A DNA stretch of 64,000 nucleotides. Source: Styela clava (lineage: Eukaryota; Chordata; Ascidiacea; Stolidobranchia; Styelidae). The position numbers were made by a program, and so were the translations under genes. Below, piece after piece: positions 10,201 through 55,989 of this stretch (its first letter is position 1; each line of letters begins with the position of its first letter). The notes below the pieces were generated by a model that worked only from the letters and a program-made list of their open reading frames with translations, ran no database searches and was not told the DNA's origin. The stretch spans positions 18,920,974 through 18,984,973 of the forward strand of contig NC_135259.1 of NCBI RefSeq assembly GCF_964204865.1. Direction: 5' to 3'.

Positions 10201-13200
10201 AAAAAACAGAAAATTTGTCAAACAGATATTTATTTTTACAAAGAATAACTTTTACAAAGTTTTTCAAAGGCGTATGTTATATATTACACTCATAGATGCT
10301 CAAAATGTTGGCCATGCACTTTAGGGCAGTGTCTTAACCTAGAAGTCAAAGCTCGTGTAGCGTTTTGAAGGTTAACTTGATGGATATTGTTCCAAGCTCG
10401 TTTTCGAATCTTTATTTGTGAAAATAAATAGCTGTCTAACAAATTTTCTGTTTTTCCACCTTGTATATCGAAAAAAGCCACTGCACTAAGATACAATTAC
10501 CATAAAAGAATAGATGATGTAAAAAAATGAAATGCTGAAATCACCTTCTCTTGTGAAGGCCAGTAAGGTTCCAATTCTTCAACAAATAAAGAACGTTTGA
10601 GCATCCAACCTAAACCTGGCATTGTTTCAACTCGATAGAGTAAAGATGGGTCGGTAGATGAATGATCATAAGCCTGCAAGTATAGGGTAATATGAAAGAG
10701 AATTAAAAATTATCCACTACTAATTCTAACAGAACTTTGAAGCCGAAAAAAATTTTTTGAATTGTATGTTGATTGCCAATATCTCCCATATTAATATTTT
10801 GGAATATTTGTAATAAAAAAAAATTTCGACATTAATTATAAATTTTCTGGAATAAGTTATTCAAATGATTATAGCAAGCACAAAAGCGGTATTACAGTGG
10901 TCGACTGAAAAATATGGAAAAATGAATTGAAAACAATATTTTTTTATATTATTTGCTGGGGTTCCATAAGTATGTGAATTAAGATGATGGACACCGGAAC
11001 GAAGTATGTGTACAAGATTAGGGTTAGGCCATAATTTTATTCCATTTTTCCTTATTTTAGTTCTATTATGAGTTCGGGGACTAACTGACTCATGTAGTAT
11101 TTGTACCTGAAAATATGGCCCAACCCTAACCTAGTATACATACTATGTTCCGGTATCCGCCATCTTGGTTTACATACCTCTGGAGTACGGATCTGATTTG
11201 TAATGCTCACCTGATCATTCCATGCTGATATGCAATACAGTGATGTGTCTTCATTTAATAAGTGCATTGTTTGGCTAAAATAACTAAAAAAAAAAAGATT
11301 TGATCAAAAACTGGAATTGGGTATCATCCTGCCATATATGTCTGCTGAGACATACAAATACATGTACTGCCGTAGTGTGTATACCAGGTTGAGTTAGGAA
11401 AAGATTTTATTCCGATTTTCCTTATTTTAGTTCAATTACGAGTTCGGGGACTTTCTGTGTTAGCCAAGTAATCATCCCCCTGCAAATAGGTTTCAGTACC
11501 TTTATACAACTTGATGTAAAGTAGGCGAACAAAATTAGTTGCCTCCATATTGTTACACACGTTACTGGAGAACCCAAATGCACATTTAAGGCTGGACGAT
11601 TCAGAATATTGAATATTTAGGATTATTGAGGCTAATTGGAGCAATGTCAATAAGTAGAGTTATATATTGCCATGAACTGTATTTTTGCAATGGGCTTAGG
11701 CCTTGCATGTAGGCAAGGAAGTTGATACAGTATATGTCCCAGTAGGTGGATTTCCGTCAAACTCTGAATGGTGGAATAAAATACATAGATAAATAAGCGA
11801 GAAGACGGTACACTGTTGGTATGCGAATTTTTTCTATTTAAATTCGCCAGGAAATGTTGTGATTACCGGTCCGCCCACGAAAAGCTACAACAAGAGACTT
11901 AAAACAAAAACACTTTATGAAGCGAAACAGCAACCCCCACAGTCATAATACAACATACCTGGCTATTGCACCATAAAGCAGCTATGGAGTATGAAATTGG
12001 TTTGTAAGAAGAAGTGGAAGTAGAATAAATTGTCTGAAGTTTCGAGGGCTTATCCAAAAAATAAATCAGCCTATTGCATAGCAATGAATAAACTTCGAAA
12101 AATGGACAATATTTACTTGTTTATTTCAGTGATCTCAGGTGAGCAACAAGCTAATTTCATTTGTCTAACAGAATCCTATTTGGGATAAATAGAATTCAGT
12201 GATATTTTCTGGGTTAGATATGAATATTATACAAGAAGAAAATGTCTCGGATTTCAGAAAGCGTATAGGTACGAAAGTATATTTTAAAAAAATATTCATT
12301 TATGTGCCTATCATAATTTAACACATGTTTTTTAAAACTCAAATTTCATGTTTTTCTAGTGCTTGGCATCTTGTTTGGTAAAACCTCCAGCCTATATAGG
12401 CGTTTGGTTTGAAGTCTGTGTATTTCGCAATACGTTTCATGATAGTGAACGCTCCCTAGAGAAAAGGGACAGTTTCGACTTTCGAGCATTAGATATTTAG
12501 TTTTAGTTTGCCACCAAGTGGGTTGTTTACTGAAAAAAAATGAAATGATCGATAATTAATTGCTCATAAAGGTCAATCAACAAGGCCAAATGATATCAAT
12601 TAAAATCAGGCACTCCCGAAGTATGTGCATCAAGATGGCGCACAACCTGAACCCTAACTTGGTACACATACTATGTTCGGGATGTGCGCCATCTTGGTAC
12701 ACATACTTCTGGAGCTCCAAAATCAGTAATAGTACATTCTCAAGTTTTAAAAACCATCTATAGCTTGAATAAATATTTCACTGGGACCTCAACCTCACTA
12801 AACAGTCCATTTTTACAGTTCTCTGCAATCGTCTGGGTGAAGCAGTATTACGCAGCGACTGCCCTAATGAGATACTAGGAACAGAGAGCAAAAATATAAC
12901 ATATGGACCAAGTAATGAATACAACTGCCAGTGTGATTGGACAATACCAACAAGAATGGAGACAGATCATGAAACTGCAGTTGTTCTGTTGTTACAAAAT
13001 GTTTCACTGCCAATGACAACAGATAGTATCGGACATTGCTCTGGAGAAATCAGATTCCCAAGTAAGGAGGCTATTTATTTATTCAATGATGCCATTGCAA
13101 ATCAGGAAAAAGGGCAGTTAAGTAAAAAAATATATATATTTCATGCAGGCACTGATGATCACAAATGTGAATTTAAGAGCAACTACTGTCTTGTATTTGC

Positions 13201-16200
13201 AACTTTATCAACCATTTGCAACATCAGCAAAATCAGAGAGAAAATTTCAGTTGCAAATCACACCTGTGATTCAATCCTGGAATGGAATGAAGCCGGAGGA
13301 AGCCCATACAAGATACAATACTATGCAAAGAATTATGCTGGTTACACAAAATACTTCACAATACAATATCTTGTAATAGATTGTAGACCAACAACCACGC
13401 TTGCACTTGGTGAGTTATATAACTGTTTGAAATTGAATTTTATTTAAATGAGTTATATAACTGTTTGAAATCAAATTTTTTTTTTCAAATATAACCGAAT
13501 TTGATCTCAAATTCAGCCACAATCACTGAACAGACATCAACTCATCGAACTTATACCTCAACATATGGGAAGCAGTATTCTAACCCCGCCATTGAATCGA
13601 CCGAAACATCATCAAACAACATCCACTGCACAACTGCTACAATCATTGCTATTCCAGTATCAGGAATTGTGGGTTTGATTGCTGGAGCTTTGTTAATGTT
13701 CATTATATTAAGGTGAATATGAATATTATATATTTAGGCAAATGTATGCTTAAATGCGAACCAGCATATTCAGAAATATTTTTCATCTTCCAAATATGTG
13801 CCATTAAAACAAACTCTGATTAAAGTAGTCAACTAGCTCCAGCACCCAGGTTCAAAAAAGTCCAACCCCAATACCTATAAAATACGGAAAATCTCTCGAT
13901 CTCTAGCTCGAACTCTTGAGCTAAAAAACGATTCCAAACCTGATTAAAATCAACTCCATCTACAGCTGATACCTAGATGGCAAAAATTTTACTATGAAAA
14001 CTCCAGTTAATTTCAATTACAAAGTTAATCAAACTTTTAGAAGTCTGAAATTTTGACTCTATTTCTACTCAAGACTTTTGAAATTACTACAAAAGATTGG
14101 AACCCAATGAAAAACACCACGACTGCTAGTTCTAGATCAACAATGAAGCAATTGTTAATAAAGTCATCGTTAACTTTTAACTTGAATTACCGTACTTTCT
14201 GTCGAATAAGATGAAGTCAACTTTTGGCAATTTTTTCTAGTATGTCTATGGGTTAAGTGTCATGTTGTCTAGTCTAGGGCCGAGATGGCGGAAGAAGTTG
14301 AACAGGAGAACAAGTCAAAATATTACCTTCAGAAAATCAGTCTTAATAGCTGGAAAATACTTAAAATATAATATAACTTATAATTCCTATAAAACCCAAG
14401 GTATCGCAACAACAACAACAAGTCAAAGAACAAAGATTCAATGGAAATGGGAAGCATTCAACATCAGCAGCTAACTGTCCATGAACGAACACCCCATGAA
14501 AACTACACACCAACATCAGATGAAAGTGGATATGAAGTTCCAATTCAAGTTGATAACAAGAATGAACAACAATATGAGATTATAACAAGTGGAAAGGAAT
14601 ATCAATATGAAAATGCCCAAATTAAAATTGTGTGACTCACAGTCATACCAGTTTTGATAATACTGATGATTTTGTATTTAGATCAAAAAAGCTGATTTTT
14701 TAATTCGTTAACTACAAATAACCTAGGATGTTTACATTTCTTCAACAAATATTACCGGTACATATCTTAACTTGTTTCGATATTTCCTTTATGTAGAAAA
14801 CAAAGACATGCTTCCATACAAATTAGCAATCATATCTGTTATTGTGTTCTACAACTATCAACGTGAAACAAAGGAGGCCTATTTCCTACTGTGCGTAAAA
14901 TTTTCTCAGATATGATTTTTATCATTATTTAACCGTTATTAAGATTAAAACTGGCGTCTCAATAAATTTCCACCATCAAGAAAAGGATCCCATGCTGTTA
15001 GGAAAGTTGGAGCCAGCTGTTGATGTTAGAGTTTATCATGCTTTATTACAGTCCTATTTTAAAATTTCCCAAAACTCACAACTTCAATGATGGTAATAAA
15101 TTGAATTTTTTTTCAGAAAGTCAGTTAAGTAAGCGTTCTTGGCAGTATAGTGAAGCAGGTTACATAATTATGCCAAAGTTTTTATTATTAAAGTTTGACT
15201 TCCTCAGGATTTCAGAGAGGCGTTTTGTCACAGACTGAACAAGGATCTGGACACATAATTATAATTTCCAAATACATTAGAACGCTGGAATGCTAAATTT
15301 TTCCCAATGGCACACACAGATTTTTTGGCGCTCCAGAAGTGAACCAAGATGGTGGACACCGGAACGTAGTATGTGTACCAGGTTGAGGTTAGGTCATATT
15401 TTTATCCGCATTTGCTTTATTTTAGGTATATTACGAGTTCGGGAACTAGCCAAGTGACTCCCGTAGTATTTGTACCTGGAATTATGGTCCAACCTAACCT
15501 GGTAAACATACTACATTCCGATGTCCGCCATCTTAGTGCACATGCTTCTAGAGTACCGTTTTTTAACAATTTCCAAACGTAATTTTTAAATCAAATAAGC
15601 ATAATAAAATACTACCAACCTAAAAAAATCTGGAGAAACATCTAAATCTTCTTCTAAAATAATAATTTCTTCTGCTTGAGGAAATAAAGTGAACATTGCA
15701 CTTAAACTTGATTTGTAGTGTTGAGATATCCGAGCATTTTTCACCCCAACAGGAACATGTTGAATCACTCGAATGTTGAAGAGTCTTGCAATTTCATATG
15801 GTTCCTGGAGGAGATAAAAATCTTCTTTTAGATCAAATCTAAGAAAGAGATGCCTCATGGGGTTGTATGACAAACTGCCTATCCCTCACTCCACATATTT
15901 CGGGGCTCCCGAAGTATGCGAACCAAGATGGCGGACATCGGAATGTAATATGTGTACTAGGTTAGGGTTAGGCCATAATTTTAGGTATAAATACTACGGG
16001 ATGCTCTTGGCTAGTCTTCAAACTGATAATAGGACTAAAATGAGAAAAATTGGAAAAAAATTATCGCCTCACCCTAACCTGTTACCCATGTTACGTTCCG
16101 ATGTCCGCCATCTTGGTACGCATACTTCGGGAGCACCCATATTTCTATAAAGTTAGATCAGTATGTGTATTCAAAAATATTTCAATTTCAATTTCGTGAT

Positions 16201-22200: not shown

Positions 22201-25200
22201 TCTTCGTACAATTGAAATTTATAAATACCATTTAAAGTAAATTTTAAAAATAGCGGATGAAATGCTAGTCACCTGTATTGAGAATTTGTCTGATATTTCT
22301 TCTGCATCATTGTTAGCTCTCAGATGACTGAAGTAATCATCTTCATCAATTGGCACAACATCACTGTCTGAATCTACAACATAAAGTTGAATAAATGACG
22401 AGGTGAGTAACGAATGCTTGTTCAGCATACTGCTAGTTTATGAATTAAATTAGGGCAGAATAGAAATTAATATCCAAGAAGGGAAGTTAATCAGTAATCC
22501 GTAGCCGTAGGCTATTTTTCACCATACTAAAATACACTTTAGGAATAAACAAGTCTAGTCTAGTCACCTCCTATTTCGTTATTTTTGTAGAAATTTGGGC
22601 GCTCCAGAAGTATGTGTAGCAATATGGAGACACCAATAACTAATTTGTTCGCCAACTTTACATCAAGTTGTGTAAAGGGACAGAAGCCTATGGGCAGGGC
22701 GTATATTCACTTGGCTAACAAAGACAGTCCCCAAACGTGTAACAGAACTAGAATAAGGAAAATTGGAATGAAATTATGGCCTAACCCTAACCTAGTACAC
22801 ATACTAAGAGAGTACTGAAATTTGTGCTAGTTACAATACATCAATGAAAATGTTCTTTTACCCAGTTCCAAAATTAATCTATGATTCTCGAGTCTTCTAT
22901 TTGTCTCAATAACCAACTTCAAATTGAATATGCATGTTCCAATTAAGAGCAACAGAGATAATATCTAAATAGGAAAAAATAATTTATGGCAGTTGAACCA
23001 CAACATCTGGTCTAGCAAAGCATAGTGTCATACTCTCAAATGATAACCTTGCCAAGCGTTATGTGGGGATTCGTTGGGTTACAAAGATTTCGATAAGAAA
23101 GGTGATTGGCTTAATGAGTTAGGCACTAGAAGCAATTTTTCTTTTTCAACACTGCAAAAAAGTCCCCAGCATTCAATGTAAAATGATCGTCAGTTATGAC
23201 TTCGAGAGGCTGTGGTTACACAGTTACAAGCAGTGTTCACTATTAGCGCACTTTTTTGCGAAAATTGCGAAGCACTTTCGCAACTTTTTTTAGGGACTGC
23301 GAAATAGCACTTTTTTCCGATTTTGAAGAGAAATAGCACTTTCTCCCGATTTTGAATGGAATAAAAATTCAAAGTTAACAAATATTTTCGAGTATTAAGT
23401 TGACAAATAAGTAACATACTAGTACTTTTGTAACTCAATTCTGCATATATATCATAACGATATTTACCGGGATTCTAACCTATGAGATGCAGACATAAGA
23501 GATAAAGCTTTTGCATTAACGGCAAAATTCTTGTTTATAATATGATTATTATACAAGCACACCGATTCCGCTTCTCCCGCAACTCCCGCAAAAACGCTCC
23601 GCGTCTTTGAAACCAGATGTTGGAATACTACCATTGCCTTTCTTTGAACGAAAGTGGTCATGTGACTATCAATGATATCCTTGAATTCAAAATGACTATA
23701 AAAGTGTTAGTAAAGTGTTATAGTCACTTTGGATGTATTGTGACCAAAGTGCACGATTTTCAAATCAGACGAAACTTTTAGCAGCATGTCACAGATTTGC
23801 AAAATCACCAAATTCACAAAATACCATTAAGTGCCATTTTATTGTAATCACAATGTTGAAAGCACGTGGCATTTTGCGATATTTACACAACTATTTCTCA
23901 TTGATATGCGAGTACGGGTGGGCAAAATTCAATATTTTATTGAATTGAATATTTTTAACCAGTACGGAATAACAAATATTTTTGGAACGTCGGTTGAAAC
24001 ATTAAAAAATCGGCAACAAAGTCTTTTTACTGGTTAATTCCGTTGTAATCGCTAATTGTTCTTGTCACCGATCGTTTTGGCGGCGATATCCAGGTTTTGC
24101 TAATCTATATTCCCGCCCTCTCTTTTTTACAAATATGAATTCTTGCGGGTCGGCGGACATCGAAGTTTTATATTTCGGGTTTACCCGTTTGTTCACATCG
24201 GCAACAGCTGTTGAAGACATAGAGGACTCAAATTAACATTTGCGTTGGCTTTAATATTACCTATCAAGATTTGTAAATTTACGGTCCCAATTTTATGCGA
24301 ATGGTAATATTATTGTCGATACCGTGATGCTGATATTTATTAAGACGATAATTAACTTTCTCATGTTTTTCTATGGTGAAAAACTTGGCAAATCTGAAAT
24401 TGTGCCAATCCTGAATGTTGATTTAAAATAGTGATTGAATAATTCGGCAATAAAGGCATTTCTGCGTGGTCATAGGACGAGATAACGTTAATGAACAGCA
24501 CTTCTTTTACAGGATATTTTACGTATGCGACTTAGACTTGATGCTGAAAAGATTGGACTCGAGTGCTTTTTTTTCGAGTGCTCGAGTGCCTAATAGAGGT
24601 CAGGCGCTAATTGTAACTAATTCCCTCAAGTTTCAACATGTCTTCAACAAAACAAAACCCCGGCGATAATTATAGCTAAAATGTTACCGAGCAATTCACA
24701 ATTTTATTTATGGAATTTGAAAATTCACCAGTTTCTTGACGATATTGATAATGTCACGCCCTAATTATTAGTGCAAAAAATACTCCCCTTCTTCCGCGGC
24801 GGTTTGATGGGTTCTTTGTTCCAATCTTCAGAAATTTCTGACACGGGGGATATAGAATACTGAATCCGGAGGGTTGAATCCCTGTCGACTTACTGGTGAT
24901 TTTCCGTTTTGGAATGCGTGGAACATTCTCTATTTTAAATTAAATGACGTTTCGCGGGCTAGAGTTCTCCCCGAAAATGATGTGTACCAGACGTTAGTTA
25001 GACGATAGATAAAACATTAGATTAATATATTTCATGACGCCCCGTTTTTGAAAATACAAAATTATATCGCAAAAAAATGCGTTTTGATACATTTGGAATG
25101 AAACATTATTTACGGTTAATTCAGATCATATTTTACTCTTCATGACACCCGGTATCCGAAAATACAGTTGTATTGCGAAAAATGTGTTTTGTTACATTTA

Positions 25201-28200
25201 AAATAAAACATTTTTGCGATTAATTTAGATCATATTTTATTTTTCAGGACACCCGTTTTCGAAAATACAAGGTTATATCGCAAAATGTGTTTTGTTACAT
25301 TTAAAATAAAACATTTTTGCGATTAATTTAGATCAAATTTTACCCTTCACGACAATCCGTTTCCGAAAATACAAAGTTTTATCACAAAAAAAATGCGTTT
25401 TGTTACATTTATTTTGCATTCCCAACAAAATACATATTTTCCCTAATTAAAGTTGTCGATGAATCTGTTCCTGTCGGTCAAGCTTGACACACGTTTGGAC
25501 GAGTGTGGGGCGGTTTTTTGGTCGACGATAAATTAAAAAGTTGCCACACGTTATTAACTGAAAAATTAGATTTTATAATAGAAGTGAATTTGTCTCAAGA
25601 TGGTATTTTACGATTCTTGCCCACAGAAAATAAACACGCTGACAGGCTTGGTTATAATTGATATTCGTTTAGTTTATTTTACACTATTAATAAACGCGCC
25701 ACACCAAGTGCGGCCATATAAATTGCAGTCGCATCGGTATGGACTGTATGTTTTTGGCGCTCTCACATTAATTATAATTTTCAACAAAACAATACCCCGA
25801 CGGTCATTGAAGCTGAATTCGTTACCGAGTAATTCACAATTTTATTTACGGAATTTGCAATTTCAAAATCTCACTCGACGATTTTGATGATGTCATGCCC
25901 TAATTATTACTGCTTAAATGCCTCAAAATACAACAAATGTAATCATTTTCGACGATAACAGACGCAACAAAACGAAATTCGCGATTGTTGCGACTCTCTC
26001 TTGTTTACAATTTTAACATCCCGCCGGCCATGTATGGTCGAATAAAATGTTCACATATTCTAAACATGACTTGGCCAAGGATGGAAGGGATCACTAAAGA
26101 GCTAATAGAAAGTACATACGCGAGGGTATGATATTAATATCGAGAATATTTGTGAGCATATCACAGGACGGAAATATTTTGCACCCGGCTGTTTGTTGGC
26201 AGAACAAACGCTAAAGTTAATTGCTCGAATACAGGGAAGTATTTATTTATCATCTCACTTGCGAACATCGAGGTTTGGGCGGAATTGTACGATCATGTTG
26301 TCTTTCTTAAATAATAACTTTTTCAAAAAATGTTCATTTTACTTTTGCGTCTTTATTATATGTCGGGTTTTCATTAATTTTAAATTCGAAATTGTCCGAA
26401 ATACTCCAACAGGTGTATAAGTACAATAATAATAGTACTTACCAGGGAAGTTTAATACACACGATGTGTTAAGGGCGTCGTAACTCCCGTTTTTTAATTT
26501 GATTGGTTTACATTCTGCTTAAAAAACAACGTCGTTTTGCAGTCATCTAACGTAACTCTCGCGCCCAATTTATTTTTGTTTTGTATGGCATCGTCTTGGC
26601 GACGAATGTATTGCCGACTGAGTTTTAATTGTGTTTTAGGATAAGTTATTTTCTGTTTGTTGGTTACTAAACTTTACAAACGTGGGTAGCACTTACTATT
26701 AATGTGAGATTTGTGCATATGAACGATTGAATATCGCGACTGGCTGTCCGATATCTGAGAATGCGTATATCAGCGTTCATGTGGTCGAATAAAAATTATT
26801 TATCAAATGGATTGGTATTTCGAGACACTCTCAAAATTATTTGGGATCCACTATCATATCATTCGTTTATTTTTTATATTCATGTTTTTTTCAAGAATCA
26901 CCCTCGTTATATTTCGTGTACCTTCGCAAAAGAAAACTCTTTGGTGTCATCGTTCCTATTAGTGTAATTGAAATATATGGAAACCTCGCAAGTGGCGTTG
27001 TGATGCGAATATTTGATACTAGGTCAGCAGCATTACAAAGAGTGCTATTTATGAATGCTGAAAGTACATGACATTACTAAACATTTTGCCAATATATGAT
27101 GTTTTCTGCCTGATTTAAACTAACTCGCACGCAAACCAAGGCATGTCGACATTTAAAAATTACTTGTCTTTGGGTAAGCTCTGAAATAGTATAATATAAA
27201 TGTAAATGAGAAATTAGGTAACGCTAGCTCACGAAAGGGGAGGATTTTCAAAGTGATCTTGTGTAATATTTCGGAGAAAAAAGTTTGAAAGGAAAGTAGG
27301 TCAACCTATCTCCTAAAACAGGGGAGTATCCTGTGTAATATTTCGGAGGGAACGTAGGTTAACCTATCTTTTAAAACAGCGGGTGGCGACTTTCAAAGTG
27401 GTTCAAAATCACAAATTAATAATTATCAGATTAGGTTTAGGGATAAATCGAAAAGTTGAATTTCCAGCGCACCTAACCCTAATTAGTTGATTGCTATTTA
27501 TATTTTGGGGGGGGGGGGAATTATTTTGCACAGGATTTGTACAAATGATTCACCCTGTAACTCATATGGTTTCCAGCCTACGTGTATCAATCGTTGTCTC
27601 TTAGATGGAAGGAGTAACAAATGTGAAAGCCTTTGCTGTTCACGCGAGTAAGCAACTGACACCGTGATACATTGCATGAAAGTTTTGTTCGCGCAAGTTT
27701 TAGCAGATGTTTTTTCCTTGCCGATGAATTCGCTTTTAATTAAACATGAATTCGCTTAAAGGGAACTCGGTTAACGGAAAGGCTTCTCTTTAATTCATAA
27801 TATTAACCGGAGGAGCGCTTTTTCGAGTATCTATGCCGTGTTAAATGGGTTATATGAAAGGCTAGAGCACCTAACTTGTTAAAATCGGCAAAAGCACTTT
27901 CGCACTTTTTTTTTCGACTGCGAAGCACTTTCGCACTCATAATTCGCTTAGAGTTAACACTGGTTACAAGGTTAGCTATATCTGTAGGACAACACTAAAA
28001 GGCTGAAGGAAGAAACGGATGAAGTGGAGGGAAAACGGAAGTTGAAGTGTTCCCAAAGGCGAAAAATTAAAAAACACTAAAAGGCTGAACACTAAAAGTA
28101 AGAAGTGGATGAAATTTCTTCCGACGGGTAGTTAGGTGGCTGAAGTCACTAAAAAGCTGAACACTAAAAGGAAGAGGTGGATGAAATTTTTTCCGACGAA

Positions 28201-31200
28201 TAATGAGGTGGTTGAAGTCACTAAAAAGCTGATGGAATTTTTTCCGACGAATAATGAGGTGATTGAAGTCACTAAAAAGCTGAACACTAAAAGTAAGAAG
28301 TGGATGAAATTTCTTCCGGCGAATAATGAGGTGGTTGAAGTCACTAAAAAGCTGAACACTAAAAGGAAGAAGTGGATGAAATTTCTTCCGGCGAATAATG
28401 AGGTGGTTGAAGTCACTAAAACGCTGAACACTTAAAGGAAGAAGTGGATGAAATTTTTTCCGACGAATAATGAGGTGGTCGAAGTCACTAAAAAGCTGAA
28501 CACTAAAAGGAAGAAGTGGATGAAATTTATTCCGACGAATAATGAGGTAGTTGAAGTCACTAAAAAGCTGAACACTAAAAGGAAGAAGTGGATGAAATTT
28601 TTTCCGACGAATAATGAGGTAGTTGAAGTCACTAAAAAGCTGAACACTAAAAGGAAGAAGTGGATGAAATTTTTTCCGACGAATAATGAGGTGGTCGAAG
28701 TCACTAAAAAGCTGAACACTAAAAGGAAGAAGTGGATGAAATTTATTCCGACGGATAGTGAGGAATACTTGAAAATTCGATATATTAGGAATTGGGTAAT
28801 TTAATGTTTGTTCTGTTCGTATTTATGAGACAATGTCCTCTGGATTCGTTTTTTGTTTATTTTTTATATGTTATGCTCAGTTCGAGCCTGGCGAATATTG
28901 AAGGCCATGACATTCTCGTTATATTCTTTTTAATTTTGATGTAATGTGCAAACAAATTACTATATATATATTCATATCTAGCTGTTCCTGCCGTATAATG
29001 GGTATGTTGCGCCACAATGGGTGGTTACGGCGAGGCATGTTTTGCAAATAGATATCTTGTTTTTCATGACTCGTGAAGCTGATTTTGTTATCAAATCAAT
29101 TTTTCCAATCAACAAACCTTGTAATTTATAATATGTTTGTGGCCCACCTCAAAATGCCTCTGAGGCTTACCAGTGGCCCATGGCCCATTGGTTGAAAACC
29201 AGTGGTCTAACAGGACTTCGATTTGACTAATACATCATTATTCAAAGTCTTCGTGCTTGCAAAATTTATAAAAACAGATATTAAGTTCAAGGAATGAAAA
29301 ACGGAATCAAAAATTAATTATATCCGGGCACAATACCACGGCAATCTATGTACATAGATGTGTGGTCAACTGCGCGATTATTATTAATTTTTGATTCCTA
29401 TTTTCGTATTTACAAAATACAACGGCGATCCATGGGGGCGACGTTCTGGACCTGCTGCGTATAAAAAATATTCGGTATTGGACTATTCGGTATTTGTTGA
29501 GAATATTCGAATTATTTGATTCGAAAAAAATATTCTATTTTGCCCACCCTTTTCTTGGCCGCCATAAGAGTATAAAAAACACGAAAAATTGAGAGTCATC
29601 GAGAAAGAGCTGCGTGTTTGTCTCTCTCAATTAAATTCCAGCCAGAATAAAATATTGAAACTTTTCGAAACAGGCCCAGATATTACATTAAAATACCATT
29701 TCTGTTCCTAGCTCCGAATTGGAATATGTGTAACGTCTTTTTCAGCTGAAGTTGACAAGCTATTATTAATTTCGTTAATTTATTTTATTCCGAAATGATC
29801 GATGTCAGTTAATTGCATAATATAGTTTATTTCCAAAAATCTCATTTGTTGTTCCGTCACAATTTTAGAATAAACAAGAGAGCTACGCACAAATATATGG
29901 ACACGTTAGACCAGAGCGAATCAGTCCTTACCGGTACCTTTGACGCTACCGGTACCCTCAAAAAAGTTCTGAATTTCCAGTAGCAAGAATTTTGCAGAAT
30001 CAAAACGTACAGCCAGTCATGACACTGACTAAAATCCGTGTTCCCATGGATAAAAAATAATACAGCAAAATTTTAGACGAAATATCAAATTTCATAGAAT
30101 TCACGCAAAATTTTGAAATAAATAAAAGTAATAGCCTTCTAGCAAAAAAATTAATCTTTAACCCTTGAAAATTTCAAAGCAATTGGTCCAGTATTCGAAG
30201 AGAAAAGCGACTTTTTAAAAACGTGTCAAAGAACAAGAACAACAACAACATAATATTGAAACGATAGTTCTGCCCACTAGTGTCCAAAAAGTGTTCCGCG
30301 ATACAAAAAAGGTTGAAAATCACTGGTGTACGAGGTTAGGGATCAGGTTGTGCGACATCTTGGTGCGCGTACTTCAGAGTAGTACCAGTATTTCAATTTC
30401 AACGGAGTTTAAATTGAATTTCAATCAAAATTAAATGTTTTCTAGAAGTCGGTATCTGATCGTTTATCAATTCATGTCAAGGCGTATCATAACTTAGTCG
30501 CAGAGAAGATGTCCACTTCTTTCTGTTAGTGTTCAGCTTTTCAGTGACCTACGCCACCTCATTATTCGTCGGAAGAAATTTCTTCCTTCTAGTGTTCAGT
30601 TTTTAGTGACTTCACCCACCGCATTATTCGTCGGTAGAAATTTCACCTACTTCTTCCTTTTAGTGTTCATCTTTTTAGTGACTTCAACCACCTCATTATT
30701 CGTCGGAAGAAATTTCATCCACTTCTTCCTTTTAGTGTTCATCTTTTTAGTGACTTCAACCACCTCATTATTCGTCGGAAGAAATTTCATCCACTTCTTC
30801 CTTTTAGTGTTCATCTTTTTAGTGACTTCAACCACCTCAATATTCGTCGGAAAAAAATTCATCCACTCCTTCCTTTTAGTGTTCATCTTTTTAGTGACTT
30901 CAACCACCTCATTATTCCTCGGAAAAAATTTCATCCACTTCTTCCTTTTAGTGTTCATCTTTTTAGTGACTTCAACCACCTCATTATTTGTCGGAAGAAA
31001 TTTCATCCACTTCTTCCTTTTAGTGTTCATCTTTTTAGTGACTTCAACCACCTCATTATTCGTCGGAAGAAATTTCATCCACTTCTTCCTTTCAGTGTTC
31101 ATCTTTTTAGTGACTTCAACCACCTCATTATTCGTGGGAATAAATTTCATCCACTTCTTCCTTTTAGTGTTCAGCCTTTTAGTGTTTTCAATTTTTCACC

Positions 31201-31895
31201 ATTGGGAACACTTCAACTTCCGTTTTTCCTCCACTTCATCCGTTTCTTCCTTCAGCCTTTTAGTGTTGTCCATATCTGTATATGTCCTTCTTGATAATTA
31301 TGAAAATTATATACTAGTCACAGTGAGGTAAATGGTCATTTAAAATGCGAAGTCGGTCATCCAAAATCGAACGAGCTATTTCTCTCGTTTTCTCGTAATT
31401 ATAGTCAGCATAGATGTCATTTCGAATGATTGTAGTTATAATTTGGCAAGTTCTATGTCGTAATTGTCATGTCAAAGCGATATAATTTTTAGATGACGTA
31501 GTCAGGTGGGGGTTGAGAAAAAAAATTCATGCAAAAATCATTATGCTACGACCACTAGAAGTAGTTGTGGACGCGTACTATAGTATGATAAGTACAAGTT
31601 TATTTCGACTCCATAATCAGCATAATAGATTATGATTGATAAAAACAAAACAAATACTAGAAAACGGTATTAAACTATTGGCCTTTTCTATTTGTAAACA
31701 TTTTAATACTGTAATAAACGGAAAACTTCTTCTCACCTTCAAAACTTGAGTGAAATTGTATCTTGGTCCGCAGAAATATTGAACGAAGGTGAAGCAAGTA
31801 ACTTTGTTTGCTTTGTCAAGGCCTAAACGTGGATTATGTCGATCACGAACTGAATGCCAATGCCACCCTGACTTAAATGGCTTGGTTTCTGCCAT
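7284..31895 (-). CDS. POMGNT1: POMGNT1, protein O-linked-mannose beta-1,2-N-acetylglucosaminyltransferase 1 (15 exons)
   Basis: Golgi type II enzyme that adds beta-1,2-GlcNAc to O-mannose, for example on alpha-dystroglycan. Exons in gene order: 31737-31895, 22862-22964, 22273-22373, 21647-21760, 20668-20781, 19373-19490, 18668-18766, 17565-17760, 16247-16322, 15620-15804, 11211-11283, 10545-10673, 9248-9427, 8473-8624, 7284-7515. All have GT/AG borders and matching phases, giving 676 aa (human 660). Residues 1-53 are the cytosolic tail, about 54-72 the signal anchor ([16 protein letters not shown]). About 120-265 is the stem domain ([19 protein letters not shown]). About 320-676 is the GT13 catalytic domain: [19 protein letters not shown] at 411-415 (metal/UDP-GlcNAc site), [31 protein letters not shown]. 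The C-terminus [10 protein letters not shown]...PIF matches the family. Exon 1 is the least certain, since the cytosolic tail is poorly conserved. Its ATG follows an AG acceptor by 40 bases (31936). Confidence 0.92.
7909..8396. mobile_element. hAT MITE with TSD, in POMGNT1 intron 14
   Basis: The termini CAGGGCTGGTCAACTA and TAGTTGAGTAGCCCTG are inverted repeats. The flanking 8 bp are tcatagaa and tcctagaa (7 of 8). A 132-codon open frame inside shows no recognisable protein and is not annotated as a gene. Confidence 0.85.
9017..9184. mobile_element. MITE family A variant fragment
   Basis: Contains 'ggttagggtttagcc', 'cttattttagttctatta' and the end 'ctacaggagtaccc', as in other family A members that carry a 'gtgttagccaagtga' segment. 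The left terminus is missing. Confidence 0.6.
9765..9870 (+). repeat. SINE 3' fragment
   Basis: Carries 'gaggccgtggtttgcc' and 'ctgataaatatgtaaacc' with a 'ctatcccatccta' tail. These match the 3' half of the full-length tRNA-derived SINE at 45700-46046. Confidence 0.65.
10967..11190. mobile_element. MITE family A copy in POMGNT1 intron 11
   Basis: Palindromic layout: 'gatgatggacaccgg', 'ttagggttaggccata', 'cctaaccta', 'ccgccatcttgg', then 'ggagtac'. It ends 21 bases from exon 11. The first bases are diverged and no TSD was found. Confidence 0.7.
11371..11574. mobile_element. MITE family A variant in POMGNT1 intron 10
   Basis: Variant with 'gtagtgtgtataccagg', 'ttattttagttcaatta', 'gtgttagccaagta' and the end 'ctccatattgttacac...ggagaaccc'. 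The telomere-like units are eroded. Confidence 0.6.
12084..14635 (+). CDS. CUB-like single-pass receptor, nested antisense in POMGNT1 intron 10 (4 exons)
   Basis: Exons 12084-12138, 12819-13409, 13517-13712 and 14401-14635 have GT/AG borders and phases 1, 1, 2. Together they give 358 aa. Residues 1 to about 20 form a leader ([12 protein letters not shown]). About 30-210 is a cysteine-rich ectodomain resembling a CUB domain: [23 protein letters not shown]. It has ten cysteines and four N-glycosylation sequons (NIT, NVS, NIS, NHT). A Ser/Thr-rich stalk precedes a membrane helix at about 257-280. The cytoplasmic tail (281-358) has tyrosines at 282, 316, 325, 339, 348 and 350, including YEII and YENA (YxN, the Grb2-SH2 preference). 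A role as a signalling or recognition receptor is inference, and no orthologue is recognised. The exon 4 acceptor is the weakest junction, but it alone avoids an in-frame stop at 14390 and continues the basic stop-transfer sequence. Confidence 0.75.
12610..12718. mobile_element. Short palindromic MITE family A derivative in intron 1 of the nested gene
   Basis: A 109 bp near-perfect hairpin: GCACTCCCGAAGTATG, 'aagatggcgcac', the mirror image, then GGAGCTCC. A perfect 8 bp TSD, aaaatcag, lies at 12602-12609 and 12719-12726. Confidence 0.85.
15327..15557. mobile_element. MITE family A copy in POMGNT1 intron 10
   Basis: Starts GGCGCTCCAGAAG, carries 'gatggtggacaccgg' and 'aacctaacctgg', and ends 'ccgccatctta...gagtacc'. 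The flanks (gatttttt/gtttttta) are only partly alike. It lies 62 bases from exon 10. Confidence 0.75.
15902..16137. mobile_element. MITE family A copy with perfect TSD, POMGNT1 intron 9
   Basis: The termini GGGGCTCCCGAAGTATGCG and CGCATACTTCGGGAGCACC are inverted repeats. A perfect 8 bp TSD, catatttc, lies at 15894-15901 and 16138-16145. 'gttagggttagg' and 'ccctaacc' are present. Confidence 0.9.
18285..18404. repeat. 120 bp hairpin with hammerhead-like core, POMGNT1 intron 7
   Basis: Arms 18285-18317 and 18373-18404 are complementary over about 32 bases with a single indel. The loop contains CTGAGGA, then a GTCTGAC/GTCTGAC pair able to form a short stem with one mismatch, then GATAC. That order resembles the hammerhead ribozyme core (CUGAUGA, stem II, GAAAC) found in Penelope-like and related retroelements, with two core substitutions. 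It is probably inactive. Confidence 0.5.
19091..19283. mobile_element. MITE family C copy in POMGNT1 intron 6
   Basis: The ends AGGGTGTCCAT and ATGGACACCCT are perfect inverted repeats. A second, diverged member lies inverted at 39621-39812, sharing 'gaagtcagttct' and 'caaaattgaaattgtaaag'-type sequence. Confidence 0.75.
19604..20034 (+). pseudogene. Relic of a hAT transposase element, POMGNT1 intron 5
   Basis: The left end 'ttacccaaactagggtcc' resembles hAT ends of the CAGTGGTTCCCAAACTGGGGTCC type. The interior keeps a fragment of the C-terminal dimerisation region: CEAAFSAI in one frame, then MKTKYMSQF after a frameshift. It reads as a decayed fragment with no intact ORF. Confidence 0.5.
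21183..21290 (+). repeat. SINE 3' fragment
   Basis: Matches the 3' half of the SINE at 45700: 'ctggtaaccggatgag', 'gattcgccatataattaagcc', 'cctctcccctggatgaatatg'. Confidence 0.6.
21308..21482 (+). mobile_element. Solo right end of the hAT-like element
   Basis: About 175 bp equivalent to the right end of copy 1 (6595-6780): 'cttatttgtcaactt', 'gtgctatttcgcagtc', 'gttgcgaaagtg' and the terminus AGTGAACACTG. No left end or TSD is visible, so it is a truncated third insertion in POMGNT1 intron 4. Confidence 0.75.
22598..22816. mobile_element. MITE family A variant with perfect TSD, POMGNT1 intron 2
   Basis: Starts GGCGCTCCAGAAGTATGTG and ends with an eroded 'gagagtact'. The 8 bp TSD gaaatttg is perfect at 22590-22597 and 22817-22824. 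Confidence 0.8.
23231..27962 (-). mobile_element. Large hAT-like element, copy 2 (4.73 kb), inverted, in POMGNT1 intron 1
   Basis: The ends CAGTGTTCACT and AGTTAACACTG are flanked by a perfect 8 bp TSD, gttacaag, at 23223-23230 and 27963-27970. The order is the reverse complement of copy 1 (2531-6780) along its whole length, with the same subterminal 'gcgaaagtgc' clusters. It holds segments missing from copy 1 at about 23606-23655 and 25346-25766. No ORF reaches 100 codons. Confidence 0.9.
28070..28757 (+). repeat. Left-arm 72 bp tandem array of the foldback element
   Basis: Nine to ten units of 72 bp, one with an internal deletion, each containing 'gaagtcactaaaaagctgaa' and 'ccgacgaataatgaggtgg'. 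Because 72 is a multiple of three, frames stay open on both strands with a 24-residue period. These are not treated as genes. Confidence 0.9.
29872..30310. repeat. Dispersed repeat family B copy in the foldback middle
   Basis: Opens 'aacaagagagctacgcac', 'atatggacacgtt' and closes 'aacaacataatattgaaacg', 'agtgtccaaa'. Other copies lie at 54512-54770 (inverted) and 61957-62160. A hAT end fragment lies nearby at 29150-29207. Confidence 0.65.
30328..30395. mobile_element. MITE family A fragment
   Basis: Only 'gtacgaggttaggg' and 'gcgacatcttggtgcg...acttcagagtagtacc' remain. Confidence 0.5.
30505..31200 (-). repeat. Right-arm 72 bp tandem array of the foldback element
   Basis: About nine inverted 72 bp units, each 'agtgacttcaaccacctcat', 'tattcgtcggaa', 'atttcatccacttcttcc'. 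The unit in the left arm is the reverse complement with scattered substitutions. Confidence 0.9.
31335..31625 (+). repeat. Dispersed repeat family G, copy in POMGNT1 intron 1
   Basis: Shares order and sequence with 55545-55915, just upstream of the BTB-Kelch gene: 'agctatttctctcgttttct', 'gtagtcaggtgggggttg', 'ttatgctacgaccact' and 'gtttatttcgactccataat'. The ends were not resolved. It lies 112 bases from the 3' border of POMGNT1 exon 1. Confidence 0.65.
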
Positions 31896-34287: not shown

Positions 34288-36522
34288 ATGCCGAAAAAAT
34301 CTAAAACTAAGCAGCAGGGTGATGAAGAAATAGCTACGAATAATGTTCAGTCAATGTCTGATTATCCGAACTTGGATAAAAATGCGCCGAAGGAAGGCAA
34401 AAAAAAGAAAAAGGGGGGTAAAAAAGCCTTTTTTGAAGAACTTGCAGATGATAATATAAATCAAGATGTAGAAAGTCCCCCTGTAGAACAAAAAACGAAA
34501 AAACAAAAGAAAAAAGAAACTGTTGAGCTTGCACCAGAGGTTGAAAAAGAAAAAACGAAACAAAGAGGGCGCCAAAGAGCACCCGGTCCTGAAGATGAGG
34601 AGGAAAATGAAAATGGTTTAGTTCAAGACTTCACACATGAAGATGGGCCAGAAAAAGAGGAATCTGACGCCCTGGATGCGGAGGCATTGAGTAAAATGAC
34701 GCGTAAAGAACGAAAAAAGTATCAAAAACAGATGCAATTTCAGAAACAAATGGAAGAGTTAGAATCTGAGAGATTGAACGATGAATTGGGCAACTTCAGT
34801 ATTTCCGAGCAAGCTTCTGGTCAAAAGATTTCAGCGATTCAAGACAATAGTATGGACATTAAAGTAGAAAGTTTTTCAATCGCAGCCAAAGGCAAAGATT
34901 TATTCAAAAATGCTTCTCTTACAATCGTCGCCGGACGAAAGTATGGTCTTGTCGGCCCTAATGGTAAAGGGAAAACGACTTTATTGCGCCATATGGCAGC
35001 GAGAAAAATGGCGATACCAGCCCATATTGATATTTTATATTGTGAACAAGAAGTCAGAGCTGATGAAACACCCGCTCTTGAAGCGGTTTTGAACGCTGAC
35101 AAAAAACGACTTGAGTTGATTGAGCTCGAGAAGCAATACATAAAAGCACAAGAAGCTGGCGATTTATCTGTACAAGAGAAATTACGAAAGGTTTATGAAG
35201 ATATGGAAGCAATTGGCGTCGCATCGGCTGAAGCAAGAGCGCAAAGAATTTTAGCCGGACTGGGATTTACAAAGTCAATGCAAAAGCGTGCGACGCAGGA
35301 TTTCTCTGGAGGCTGGAGAATGAGAGTTTCCCTCGCAAGAGCTTTGTTTATGGAACCAACATTACTTATGTTGGATGAACCCACGAATCATTTGGATCTG
35401 AACGCTGTCATCTGGTTAGACAACTATTTACAACTATGGAAGAAAACTCTTTTAATCGTCTCCCACGACCAAAACTTTTTGGATAACATTTGCACGGATA
35501 TTATCCACCTTGATGACCTAAAGTTGCAGTACTATCGAGGAAATTTTGCACAGTTTAAAAAGATGTACGTCCAACGATTGAAAGAGATGACAAAACAATA
35601 TGAAAAGCAAGAGAAGAGATTAAAAGAGCTGAAAGCGCATGGATCATCAAAACAAGCAGCAGAAAAGAAAACAAAAGAAGCATTGACCCGTAAACAAGAG
35701 AAAGGTCGTCGTCGTGGTGCCACACAAATGGAAGAAAGCAGTGAAACGACTGTTGAATTGATACGAAAACCTCGTGAATATATTGTCAAATTTTCTTTTC
35801 CAGATCCTCCACCTTTGAACCCGCCAATATTAGGATTATATAACATCAGTTTTGGTTACCCCGGGCAACCAATGCTTTTCAAAAACGTAGAATTTGGTGT
35901 TGATATGGAATCTAGAATTTCTATCGTAGGACCTAACGGCGTAGGCAAGTCTACGCTTTTGAAACTTCTGTGTGGAACGCTTGACCCGACTTCAGGAGAA
36001 ATGCGTAAAAATCACAGAGCCCGAATTGCATTCTACAGTCAGCATTCAGCTGAACAACTGGACTTGGATAAATCACCAGCGGAATATTTGCAAAGTAAGT
36101 TTAACATGCAGTACCAAGAAGCTCGGAAGCGTCTCGGCTCTGTCGGACTTGTAAGCGAAGCTCACACCATCCCGAATCGGGATTTAAGCGGAGGACAGAA
36201 AGCTAGAGTAGCTCTTGCCGAACTCGTAGCAAGCGCACCCGATATTTTAATCTTAGACGAACCGACGAATAATTTGGATCTTGAATCAATCGATGCACTT
36301 GCGGACGCAATAAACACCTATAAAGGAGGAGTTATAATTGTGTCTCATGATTCACGTTTAATTACCGAAACAAACTGTCAACTGTGGGTTGTTGAGCAAC
36401 AGACTATCAATCAAATTGAAGGTGACTTTGATGATTACAAACAGGAAATCTTAGAATCTCTTGGAGAGGAGATTGTTAAAAAACAGCCGTCTGCCGCCGC
36501 AGCTATAGCGGTAGAGCAATGA
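34288..36522 (+). CDS. ABCF1: ABCF1 (ABC50-type) ATPase, translation factor, intronless
   Basis: Cytosolic twin-ABC ATPase without membrane segments. Animal ABCF1 binds eIF2 and ribosomes and promotes translation initiation. The frame is 744 codons in one exon. Residues 1-165 are the lysine/glutamate-rich N-terminal extension typical of ABCF1. ABC1 has Walker A GPNGKGKT at 223-230, signature FSGGW at 339-343, Walker B LLMLDEP at 359-365 and switch SHD at 392-394. A charged linker spans about 425-480. ABC2 has GPNGVGKS at 548-555, signature LSGGQ at 633-637, LILDEP at 654-659 and SHD at 686-688. All catalytic motifs are intact. The start is the first ATG, 42 bases after a pyrimidine-rich TTACAG (AG at 34244-34245). 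Vertebrate orthologues have many introns, so the single exon is notable. Confidence 0.95.
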
Positions 36523-40269: not shown

Positions 40270-41922
40270 TCAATGAGTGTCTTCGGCATCATCAAATTGT
40301 CCTTCCACTGAAGGAAGAATAGGGGCACCTTGCTGCGGGTTGTCATCGACAACAGGGGGCCTTCCTACCACAGGAGGCTCATCAGTGTTCATGGGGCCCT
40401 CCTCCTCAATCTGAACCCCTTCCATTTGGGAAATCCCCTCAGGTTCAGAAATTTGTGAATCTGCTAACATATTCTCTAGTCTTGCTAATGTTGCTTGCCC
40501 TGCAGGCGTTAAATGTTGTAAGCCTTCTTCAGAAGTATAAAATCCTTCCCCCGCACCGCCATTGTAAACAGTAGGGGGGTACATAGCCCCTTCATAGTTT
40601 TGCTCCTCACTGTCACCATCTCCTCCATAATAGTCATCGCTATCCTCACTGTCCGGATGGAGACATTGGCAGTCGCTCATTGCATCGAACATTCGTTTTA
40701 AATTGTCTTTACATACTGGTATAAATCTGATCTCTGATATTGTACCACTTGTGTCAGCAGCAAACTCGTTATCTGCACAATCGTACTCTTCTGTCTGTCC
40801 GTTGCCATTGACAACCGGTTCACAAATCTCACCATTGAACATTACGTAAAGACATTCTTCAGGAAATGCCTGGAAAATCACAAGATTATACACTGAATAA
40901 ATTATATCTAAAACCATAACCTTCAAGGTATGGAAAATACAGGGTGTTAAAAAAGATTTTTCGGCATGGCAGCGTTAAAAAAGTAACTGTTAAAAAGCAT
41001 CAGACGTGAAATGTTTAAATGGCATTTCACCATAATTCAATACTTTTGAAAGATATCAGTCGTTAAACGTACCAAGTAGCATTTCATCCAAACTTCTGTT
41101 TATTTTGCGTTACTTTTTTAACACCCAGTAGTATGATGGCAGAAATGTACAAAGCCAAATTATAACATGATTACATTACACCTGAAAGACGAATTCCGCA
41201 AATTGTATTGATTAGTAGTCCTGTTTCACAGAGTTCGTAGCTGAAGCCTAAGGTCTAAATTTTTATTAACCCAGAGTCGCATTTAATCTAGAATCGACTA
41301 GTCACTGGCAATTGTGGATTTCTCAGACGCCGCAGTCTTGGTTGTCATAAACCGTGCCAAACCTTATATCTGATCAACTAGTTGTCTGTGGACTTTCTCA
41401 CAGCCAAGGTATAAAATATTCTAAAGATATGACAGCTATTATACAGTCAGTCAGTAGTTTATTTTATCACATGTCGAAAGTACACATTGTACATTATAAC
41501 TATGACAGATAAAAAAATGAATTTCAGTATGCAGGGAGCACAATAACCAGTGATGGTTATCAAGCACCGTCACCTATAAGGAATTCAGACTCTGAAGATA
41601 CATTTAGGTGACCCATTACCCCAGTGTCACTCTTGTTAATGGAAGAAAACAACTCTAGACAGGCAGGCGGGGTAACCATGGCAACCACAGTTCATTGAAT
41701 ACCAAGCGTACAACTGAATACCTGTAAATCTTTAGAGACGGCATGTATTGCGATATCTTTATAACCGAGTGACAGTCCACGATGCTCCTGATTCTCCCAG
41801 ATCAATCTTTCTTCTGAAATATACAACGTTCCACTTCCTCTGTCATCAGAGTTTATGTTGATTCTGCAATTTTGTTCCGTATGTTGAATTCCTGTATCAG
41901 GCGTGACAACTCGAGGCAACAT
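40270..41922 (-). CDS. CLNS1A: pICln, methylosome subunit (two exons)
   Basis: Cytosolic chaperone of Sm proteins that works with PRMT5 and WDR77 in snRNP assembly. Exon 1 is 41722-41922 (67 codons) and exon 2 is 40270-40869, with GT/AG borders in phase 0, giving 266 aa (human 237). The PH-like fold spans about 1-125: SGTLYISEERLIW, IHAVSKDLQ | AFPEECLYVMFNGE, EIRFIPVC. The acidic segment HPDSEDSDDYYGG at about 138-150 is the family's Sm-mimicking region. YTSEEGLQHLTPAGQATLARL and the C-terminus GQFDDAED match the family closely. The ATG lies 7 bases after an acceptor-like GCCAG (AG at 41931-41930). The 852 bp intron carries a MITE and a family D repeat. Confidence 0.95.
40942..41126. mobile_element. 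185 bp MITE in the pICln intron
   Basis: GGGTGTTAAAAAAG at the left and CTTTTTTAACACCC at the right are perfect inverted repeats. Inside, 'ggcatttcac' and 'agcatttcatc'-type copies add symmetry. No clear TSD. Confidence 0.7.
41440..41540. repeat. Dispersed repeat family D (possible LINE tail)
   Basis: 'cagtcagtagtttatttta' followed by 'gaaagtacacattgtac' and 'aatttcagtatgcaggga' matches 39270-39350. The region 41930-43093 shows no other gene; it contains AT-rich and diffuse repeat sequence only. Confidence 0.45.
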
Positions 41923-43361: not shown

Positions 43362-44648
43362 CTATGTTTTTTTAGACTTTGAATTAATCTCATCAGGACT
43401 TAGGAACAAACCTATAAGCATCAATAAATGCATTACATGAAGGAGAGAAGAACTAAACACTGTGGAAGGATAAGTATTCCAACTAAGTTCAATTAGACCA
43501 AATATTAGCAATCTAGCTGTCGAGTGAATTTTTATATTCCATAATAAAAAGGGTAAAGTATGATAATACCAAACATAGAACTGGTAATGTAATGATCGAC
43601 TAAAGCACATACCGATGAAATTGCTCACAAATAAAATCTGAACCATTTTTGTTGGAGATATTTTTGGCAAATTAGCTTCCCAGTTCGTGAAAGGATTAAT
43701 TAAGGAAAACAATTGCTTGATTCCGTTTCTCCATTTAAATATTGCAAACAGCACAAGAATTGATAAATGTAACAAGAGCAGGCATAACTGGAATTGCTTG
43801 TTTAGAAATATTTCCTCCGGTACGAGCCTCCAATTTACAGTCCAAATATAGAAAAACTGACGACTGAACTCGAAAGATTTTTTAACGTAGCCGACTGAAT
43901 TTTCAAGTAAAAATGGAATCGCTATAACTATTTGGGTGAGTAAACATACAAATAAATGTCCAATTGTTTTTAAAATTCCATTTTCGATTAATAGGATCAC
44001 CAACAATGCAGGTGCAAAAAGAAAAATGTTCATTTTTACCCCGACGGCGAGACTGTAAAATATGCAACCTATACTCCATTGTTTTGACAGAAATAAATTC
44101 ACTGAGGCATAAAATATCATCATAGCCACTGGGTCATTGAAAAGCCTCAACACAAAAATTGAATGAATTCTGTAAGAAGTCATACACATAAAAATAAAAA
44201 CATAGGGAGGACATTGCCTAGTTTTTTCGTAAATCCTAACCACAAGAGCTAAATTAATAACATAAAACAAACAGAAAATATACTGTGCTACTTTTATGTT
44301 TGTTCCTTGTGATGTTAGGTAATAAAGAGCAGAGTATATGTAAACAAAAGCAGCGGGGTAAACAAGCGGCCCGGTGTCTCCTTTTAGTTCCGTATAATCC
44401 CGTGTTCCGTTGATGAAGCCCTCGACCTCCTGCATATACGCAACCCAGTCAATTTCTGTGTATTTCACAAAGTGTACAACCAGTATATTTAAAATGATTT
44501 CTCCAATAATGAGAAGACAGCATAATTTCCATGTGTACGCCGGATCCGTCAGAAGTTTAAATGCAAAGTCCCACAAGTATTCAATGTTCGTTTTCAATTT
44601 AGAAAACAAGGAGAGCTTTTTCTGCTTTCTCTTTTGCAATGCAGGCAT
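43362..44648 (-). CDS. ALG3: ALG3, Dol-P-Man:Man5GlcNAc2-PP-Dol alpha-1,3-mannosyltransferase, intronless
   Basis: ER membrane GT58 enzyme that adds the first dolichol-phosphate-mannose-derived mannose to the lumenal N-glycan precursor. One 428-codon exon (human about 438). YTEIDWVAYMQEVEGF (63-78) and LKGDTGPLVYPAAFVYIYSA (88-107) are the family's lumenal signature. VLRLFNDP (166-173) and SRSLHYQFYVWYYHTLPFLL (350-369) are also conserved. About ten hydrophobic segments are visible. The C-terminus KSKKT fits a KxKxx ER-retrieval signal. Twenty bases before the ATG is a pyrimidine-rich TTGTAG (AG at 44670-44669), looking like a 3' splice site although the gene has no intron. It is divergent from the gene at 45559. 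Confidence 0.95.
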   Translation of the reverse strand: MPALQKRKQKKLSLFSKLKTNIEYLWDFAFKLLTDPAYTWKLCCLLIIGEIILNILVVHFVKYTEIDWVAYMQEVEGFINGTRDYTELKGDTGPLVYPAAFVYIYSALYYLTSQGTNIKVAQYIFCLFYVINLALVVRIYEKTRQCPPYVFIFMCMTSYRIHSIFVLRLFNDPVAMMIFYASVNLFLSKQWSIGCIFYSLAVGVKMNIFLFAPALLVILLIENGILKTIGHLFVCLLTQIVIAIPFLLENSVGYVKKSFEFSRQFFYIWTVNWRLVPEEIFLNKQFQLCLLLLHLSILVLFAIFKWRNGIKQLFSLINPFTNWEANLPKISPTKMVQILFVSNFIGMCFSRSLHYQFYVWYYHTLPFLLWNIKIHSTARLLIFGLIELSWNTYPSTVFSSSLLHVMHLLMLIGLFLSPDEINSKSKKT

Positions 44649-55915: not shown

Positions 55916-55989
55916 CTTAAACTGCACAATCTTATACACAGGCAGCAACTTAGCAATACCCTACTTAACTTAGGTTCTAATATCTGAAG

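Follow-up and report, generated by a model that had tools for sequence, protein, structure and literature searches.

A predicted five-exon receptor gene lying antisense within a POMGNT1 intron of Styela clava, and its tandem-array relatives

In seven vertebrates, nested structures hold 4.3-8.7% of protein-coding genes, and the partners lie on opposite strands in 74.3% of simple human pairs and in about three quarters in human and mouse (PMC8467205). Two described cases come closer to the locus considered here: the Drosophila gene 2mit, type I single-pass and receptor-like, sits in intron 11 of timeless2 (PMC3786989), and in an ascidian v-Themis is encoded antisense in an intron of s-Themis (PMC9265791). 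The present analysis concerns 64,000 nucleotides of the ascidian Styela clava (contig NC_135259.1, C13:18920974-18984973; this whole stretch is the window, and unprefixed positions refer to it). The sequence indicates that a gene of five exons, predicted to encode a type I single-pass receptor, has probably been copied from a tandem array on another contig, C14, into an intron of POMGNT1 on C13, in antisense orientation.

The identity of the host is clear. Joined together, four pieces of minus-strand exon flanking the intron on either side align unbroken to residues 251-439 of a human-type POMGNT1 (5ggf, E 1.7e-86), and the Pfam model GNT-I matches two POMGNT1 exons, one on each side. The whole nested coding region (12102-14635, plus strand) lies between two POMGNT1 exons within this single intron, on the other strand, which bears out the antisense nesting proposed by a first-pass annotation of this DNA. 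The splicing given there (12084-12138, 12819-13409, 13517-13712, 14401-14635) does yield one open frame of 358 amino acids with GT-AG borders at all three introns; its four-exon structure did not hold, as the earlier "exon 2" is two exons split by an 87-base intron. As read from sequence, the gene comprises five exons and encodes 323 amino acids, with the following features:

11284..15619, minus strand: POMGNT1 host intron; flanking exons colinear with 5ggf 251-439, GNT-I Pfam matches on both sides
11860..12053, plus strand: putative promoter region, 5' flank common to a C14 relative (94.4 versus a maximum of 84.8 in 60 dinucleotide shuffles)
12102..12138, plus strand: exon 1, leader; 12064-12143 matches the reverse complement of L032, 6133-6212 (77.5%, E 3.7e-12)
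12819..13061, plus strand: exon 2, first half of the ectodomain; an exon of its own in 31/31 fetched paralogues
13062..13148, plus strand: intron of 87 bases, open and in frame; an intron of 62-3457 bases in paralogues
13149..13409, plus strand: exon 3, second half of the ectodomain, from the paralogue alignment
13517..13712, plus strand: exon 4, Thr/Ser stalk and transmembrane helix (hydropathy 2.47; helix part matches paralogues)
14401..14635, plus strand: exon 5, cytoplasmic tail and stop, with YTPT, YEVP, YEII, YQYE and YENA; up to 92.6% identity to the C14 tail exon 5648205
14615..14635, plus strand: private C-terminal extension AQIKIV and new stop; paralogue homology ends at 14614
14961..14966, plus strand: candidate poly(A) signal AATAAA, by consensus only

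The short intron decides the gene model. Its 87 bases have GT-AG borders (GTAAGG...GCAG), and C14 was examined for pairs of exons 2 and 3 across 5.53-5.75 Mb and most of 5.756-5.770 Mb, which gave 31 pairs. Because the two exons are separate in all 31, with gaps of 62 to 3457 bases, and because removing 13062-13148 produces a junction, FPS/T, identical to the family consensus, the segment is called an intron. Translation more likely begins at 12102 than at the upstream in-frame ATG at 12084, since the sole detected relative of exon 1 (C14 near 6.186 Mb) has CTG in place of the first ATG and keeps only the second. The last acceptor, before 14401, is weak-looking, yet it corresponds to the acceptors of the paralogues. 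The stalk part of exon 4 gave no blastn alignment to paralogues, unlike the helix part.

The nested gene belongs, by sequence, to a receptor family of about 40 copies on C14, most of them in one tandem array. Searches of the 376.6-Mb assembly (379 contigs) with 12084-14635 as DNA query, in which the best 40 of 2772 candidates were scored, returned at least 87 matches: at least 85 on C14, three of them a repeat element, and two on C13, namely the gene itself and an element in its intron 1. The corresponding protein search (best 124 of 137 candidates scored) gave at least 139 exon matches, at least 135 on C14 and four being the gene's own exons. From the matches listed, C14 holds at least 39 copies of exon 3 and at least 40 of exon 2, distributed as at least 34 and 34 at 5.53-5.79 Mb, at least 3 and 4 at 6.16-6.19 Mb, and at least 2 and 2 at 19.05 Mb; among these matches the nested gene is the only family member off C14. 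Self-comparison of the 64-kb window revealed no paralogue beyond chance. The initial remark that the gene has no recognised orthologue stands as far as tested, and is incomplete in view of its C14 relatives.

The nested gene shares with the family a two-exon cysteine-rich ectodomain split at FPS/T, and its exons for the transmembrane helix and the tyrosine tail are spliced at the same points. It departs from the family's ten-cysteine pattern in having nine; it is nevertheless kept in the family because its ectodomain is 66-80% identical to those of the other members and because leader, helix and tail exons are shared. Some fetched relatives are broken, two of the 31 by stops and a third by a frame shift.

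The array shows variation of its own. Upstream of the array genes (L009-L030) there are at least two leader types, MWKHSKLF-like in 18 of 31 genes and MKELPVI-like in the first few, and the leader in the window is a third type. A relative with the window leader (reverse complement of L032, 6133-8734, C14 near 6.18 Mb) has a broken exon 2 frame and a second tail type. Extra stalk/helix and tail exon sets lie 3' of complete genes at C14:5629552-5630310, 5640784-5641397, 5658005-5658753 and 5668639-5669252 (L018-L022); no ectodomain exon was recognised with them, and they may serve as alternative 3' ends or be left over from other genes.

The structure of the nested gene is nearest to that of the short-intron genes at 6.16-6.19 Mb, and sequence outside the coding exons supports a common origin. 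In local alignments, the flank 11860-12053 against the gene at C14:6.18 Mb, the intron 13410-13516 against gene 1 of L032, and the intron 13713-14400 against L033 each scored above all 60 shuffles. Because it shares with C14 relatives a leader exon, a stretch of 5' flank and portions of two introns, the nested gene is read as a DNA-level duplicate of some age. Retroposition was rejected, since the copy retains its introns, two of them with partial homology. Exon 1 was also compared with the main-array leader, and that homology was rejected; the different leader at C14:6.18 Mb matches instead. At the other end, similarity to all four matching tails from 6.16-6.19 Mb ends by 14614, at the old stop codon or one base away from it; past this point the nested frame runs on for six more codons.

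Several comparisons tell against this account of the origin. For intron 1, 45 and 44 of 60 shuffles scored as high as the real alignments, and for the 87-base intron 3 of 60 did. Shuffles equalled the alignment of 13410-13516 with gene 2 of L032 in 18 of 60 cases, and those of 13713-14400 with L032 genes 1 and 2 in 14 and 18 of 60. The 3' flank was matched by 17 of 60 shuffles in one comparison and fell below the shuffle mean in a second. The main-array leader type (18/31 array genes) was not found in the window, and an ectodomain tree built without the 6.16-6.19 Mb group joins the nested copy to p5709817 and p5573811 with weak support (71). Weighing both sides, one member of the C14 tandem family was probably copied at the DNA level, with its introns and some 5' flank, antisense into the POMGNT1 intron, and the six private C-terminal codons would derive from the host intron. 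An upstream repeat element (11364-11570), which also lies 5' of many array genes, may have been carried along with the copy; its high copy number makes this no more than a possibility.

Whether this copy still works is a separate issue. When the host intron was dinucleotide-shuffled 300 times, no shuffle attained the 224-codon open stretch (longest 173), an argument that becomes weaker because 13062-13148 is taken as an intron; the exon relatives elsewhere in the genome, 71-93% identical, are the stronger evidence of coding. Codon usage was rejected as coding proof, since the training set was too small and the scores did not separate the frames. Between the nested ectodomain and 28 intact paralogues, the median nonsynonymous divergence (dN) is 0.163 and the synonymous divergence (dS) 0.359, with a median dN/dS of 0.46, compared with 0.175, 0.290 and 0.59 among 378 paralogue pairs. 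Across 11 tails, dN is below dS in every comparison with the nested tail (medians 0.091 and 0.267).

These data bear on the strongest alternative, in which the locus is a decaying duplicate under no selection, its frame kept by chance or youth. A number of observations favour such decay over a working gene. Ectodomain residue 11, the first cysteine of a CxxC motif, is R in the nested copy and C in 18 of 20 aligned members of set A1 (the nested copy together with 19 of 28 intact paralogues), so that a near-invariant cysteine is lost. The ancestral stop codon is lost as well, leaving a private C-terminus; the tip branch, at 0.136, exceeds the median of 0.090; and some relatives are themselves broken. 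Against a working gene it also counts that codon-usage scoring did not favour the nested frame and that pairwise dN/dS blends both branches of each comparison. The long branch and the missing CxxC cysteine would fit relaxed constraint as well as a new function. On the other side, all five exons are open with GT-AG introns, the dN/dS median lies below that among paralogues, and neutral copies that stay free of stops are rare in simulation, with P 0.0038, 0.0116 and 0.0472 at 132, 97 and 66 substitutions, the first being the estimated branch and the last half its length. The open frame and the dN/dS median argue against a dead copy, and decay appears unlikely; the locus is read here, short of proof, as a working, diverging gene.

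The tail is the part of the protein that suggests a function. The family tail unit spans 15 residues, SGYEVPxxVDNKNEQ, and the nested tail has one such unit; YxxP counts range from 1 to 7 in 13 C14 tails identified through their start motif. Repeat number varies among paralogues, and the longest tail (L017-L018, C14:5616169-5617425) is a 419-codon open frame with a 45-base tandem repeat and 24 GYE units, of which YEVP accounts for 7 and YEVI or YEVM for 17. YEII is preferred by Src-type SH2 domains and YxN by Grb2. Crk SH2 domains bind phospho-YxxP, of which p130Cas carries 15 (PMC5043372, PMC2689226), and cytosolic YxxP repeats have been described on transmembrane proteins of choanoflagellates (PMC5043372). 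Not all tail repeats fit Crk, since 17 of the 24 units in the longest tail are YEVI or YEVM.

The best reading of the protein is a type I receptor whose YEVP/YEII/YxN tail would dock SH2 adaptors. Its cysteine-rich ectodomain may bind an extracellular ligand, upon which Src-family kinases could phosphorylate the tail. Subsequently, phospho-YEVP would recruit Crk-type SH2 adaptors, YEII Src-type SH2 domains, and YxN Grb2. A point against this scheme is that phosphorylation and SH2 binding are predicted from short motifs. As the nested copy has one tail unit and its relatives differ in unit number, it would count as a member of low valency outside the cluster, with its own promoter within a host gene of broad expression. 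A wider and rather doubtful proposal is that C14 carries a recognition-receptor complex specific to tunicates, made up of about 40 type I receptors whose ten-cysteine ectodomain is unclassified, in which the 45-base tail repeat (1 to 24 units) sets signalling strength; the POMGNT1 gene would then be an escaped member, lacking repeat variability and one cysteine, with a fixed, separately regulated role.

A second alternative does away with the tail altogether: if the exon 4 donor is read through, ILR and then TGA follow directly after the helix (open reading frame 13495-13716), which would give a tail-less or glycosylphosphatidylinositol (GPI)-anchored form ending in a hydrophobic C-terminal signal, with exon 5 unused or confined to another isoform. 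The retained intron does provide that stop, but exon 5 ranks with the best conserved stretches of the gene (up to 92.6% identity; dN below dS against all 11 tails), and its acceptor and phase match those of the paralogues, which makes this form improbable.

The type I layout anticipated by the first-pass annotation is supported. A leader with a short hydrophobic core precedes a cysteine-rich ectodomain, some 160 residues long, which has four sequons and keeps nine of the ten family cysteines; a Thr/Ser stalk, a single hydrophobic helix and a tail come next. Its reading of the ectodomain as CUB-like is not supported. The likeness to CUB (PF00431) is that of an extracellular, cysteine-containing domain with a stretch, NEYNCxCDWTIP, like the CUB C-x-W-x-I segment, and amounts to 18 columns. 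The difference is that Pfam CUB matches none of the 20 A1 ectodomains and none of the 11 in a broader set, A2, and that the profile-profile score lies at shuffle level: against 12 CUB domains of the same genome the probability was 2.2% and the score 18.5, with one of 30 column-shuffled controls reaching 19.0, whereas CUB against CUB scored 165. A CUB profile found at least 150 CUB exons in this genome (best 150 of 350 candidates), none listed at the nested gene or its paralogues. As such, the CUB assignment is not supported by sequence comparison. An AlphaFold model, mostly strands with a predicted local distance difference test (pLDDT) score of 43, was computed from one sequence with the intron read through; it was unreliable and went unused. 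The genome has dense clusters of CUB exons elsewhere, at C3:8.18-8.22, C3:15.71-15.81 and C19:9.355-9.390 Mb.

Other classifications fared no better. For the full reading, every Pfam family stays below its cut-off, and none matches more than a single ectodomain among the 20 of A1 or the 11 of A2; neither an immunoglobulin nor another Pfam domain was found in the nested protein or the family ectodomains. The Pfam candidates BAMBI_C (0.02), TMEM154 (0.032), TMEM51 (0.041) and TRP (0.089) were rejected as below cut-off and at or near the helix. NCBIfam gave two matches only, both below cut-off, and PDB searches found no relative of the nested protein or of the A1 and A2 ectodomains. A TIM-3-like immunoglobulin match from the PDB profile search (E 0.47 over 28 residues with A1) was also rejected; it was gone with A2, whose one match was to an unrelated enzyme (E 0.49).

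The earlier model in its entirety, an isolated lineage-specific four-exon CUB receptor with exon 2 unspliced through 13062-13148, is accordingly very improbable: the open, in-frame 87 bases would make an intron-retained isoform translatable and the 18-column stretch does recall CUB, but the intron present in every fetched paralogue, the consensus junction on splicing, the failure of both Pfam and profile-profile comparison, and about 40 relatives in the same genome all stand against it. That a piece of the C14 array was misjoined into C13 during assembly has the slightest chance of all, for although relatives in tandem arrays are hard to assemble, there is no near-identical C14 copy (best ectodomain DNA match 82% among the best 40 of 2772 candidates), and host intron and gene are gapless in the window. 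The preferred interpretation remains a family member copied into the POMGNT1 intron.

The rest of the window provides context. An element of some 220 bases, present in many copies and bearing inverted ends (AAGATGGCGGAC...), flanks the nested gene on both sides and has one copy in its intron 1; copies lie at 604-838, 10974-11188, 11356-11577, 12613-12714, 15323-15564, 15911-16137, 22593-22815, 58413-58650, 59496-59727 and 61025-61249, among others. Two coding-like tandem repeat blocks, open on both strands, occupy 28070-28822 and 30498-31328. The remaining features are:

12613..12714, no strand assigned: inverted-repeat element copy in intron 1 of the nested gene, from blastn self-comparison
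34288-36516, plus strand: ABC protein (ABCF-like), by Pfam
40276-40974, minus strand: Voldacs (pICln-like), by Pfam
43368-44651, minus strand: ALG3, by Pfam
46668-47420, plus strand: Periphilin_C, by Pfam
55984-57837, plus strand: BTB-BACK, by Pfam

Elsewhere in the genome, a GH6 exon (PF01341) scores above the Pfam cut-off at C9:16179895-16180164, and none of 14 control genomes has one. GH6 is present in bacteria and fungi too. Together with an animal POMGNT1 in this assembly, it fits a tunicate genome, for which it is a hallmark. GH6 and cellulose synthase are said to be tunicate genes, thought to be horizontally acquired (PMC7464555, PMC6523144).

In the open PMC literature, a coverage that excludes subscription papers, there was no report of a gene nested in a POMGNT1 intron and no description of the C14 receptor array. 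The weight of these findings lies with the family: its receptors form a lineage-specific tandem array, their ectodomain falls outside the Pfam models, and their number of tyrosine docking units varies. If RNA and population data agree, the closest relatives of vertebrates would have in it a candidate set of receptors for immunity or self-recognition, with the nested copy as a natural test of receptor role away from the cluster.

How the locus relates to described systems can now be stated more precisely. With 2mit (PMC3786989) it shares a type I single-pass, receptor-like product, a tail with signalling motifs, and an opposite orientation in the intron of an unrelated gene; 2mit has leucine-rich repeats, two exons and a nesting conserved among Drosophila species, whereas the present gene has an unclassified cysteine-rich ectodomain, five exons and tandem-array relatives elsewhere. 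The v-Themis/s-Themis locus (PMC9265791) is likewise an ascidian gene antisense within another gene's intron, but it is a polymorphic self/non-self pair of host and guest, the guest being a fibrinogen-like egg-coat protein, and nothing links the nested gene and POMGNT1 in function. With p130Cas/BCAR1 and the choanoflagellate proteins, the latter also transmembrane (PMC5043372), the common ground is YxxP-type tyrosine motifs, which several relatives of the nested gene carry as repeats, and the likeness is one of motif. p130Cas/BCAR1 combines an SH3 domain, a substrate domain rich in YxxP and a FAT-like domain at the C-terminus; the nested protein differs in having one YEVP and neither an SH3 nor another Pfam domain. 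The fuhc locus of Botryllus offers tunicate membrane receptors thought to be active in recognition, although fuhc-tm has three immunoglobulin domains (PMC3691228), of which none was found in the nested protein. Taken together, since nested genes are common in vertebrates and antisense nestings are known both for a receptor gene and in an ascidian, the nesting itself is ordinary, and the interesting part is the C14 array with its unclassified ectodomain and variable tails.

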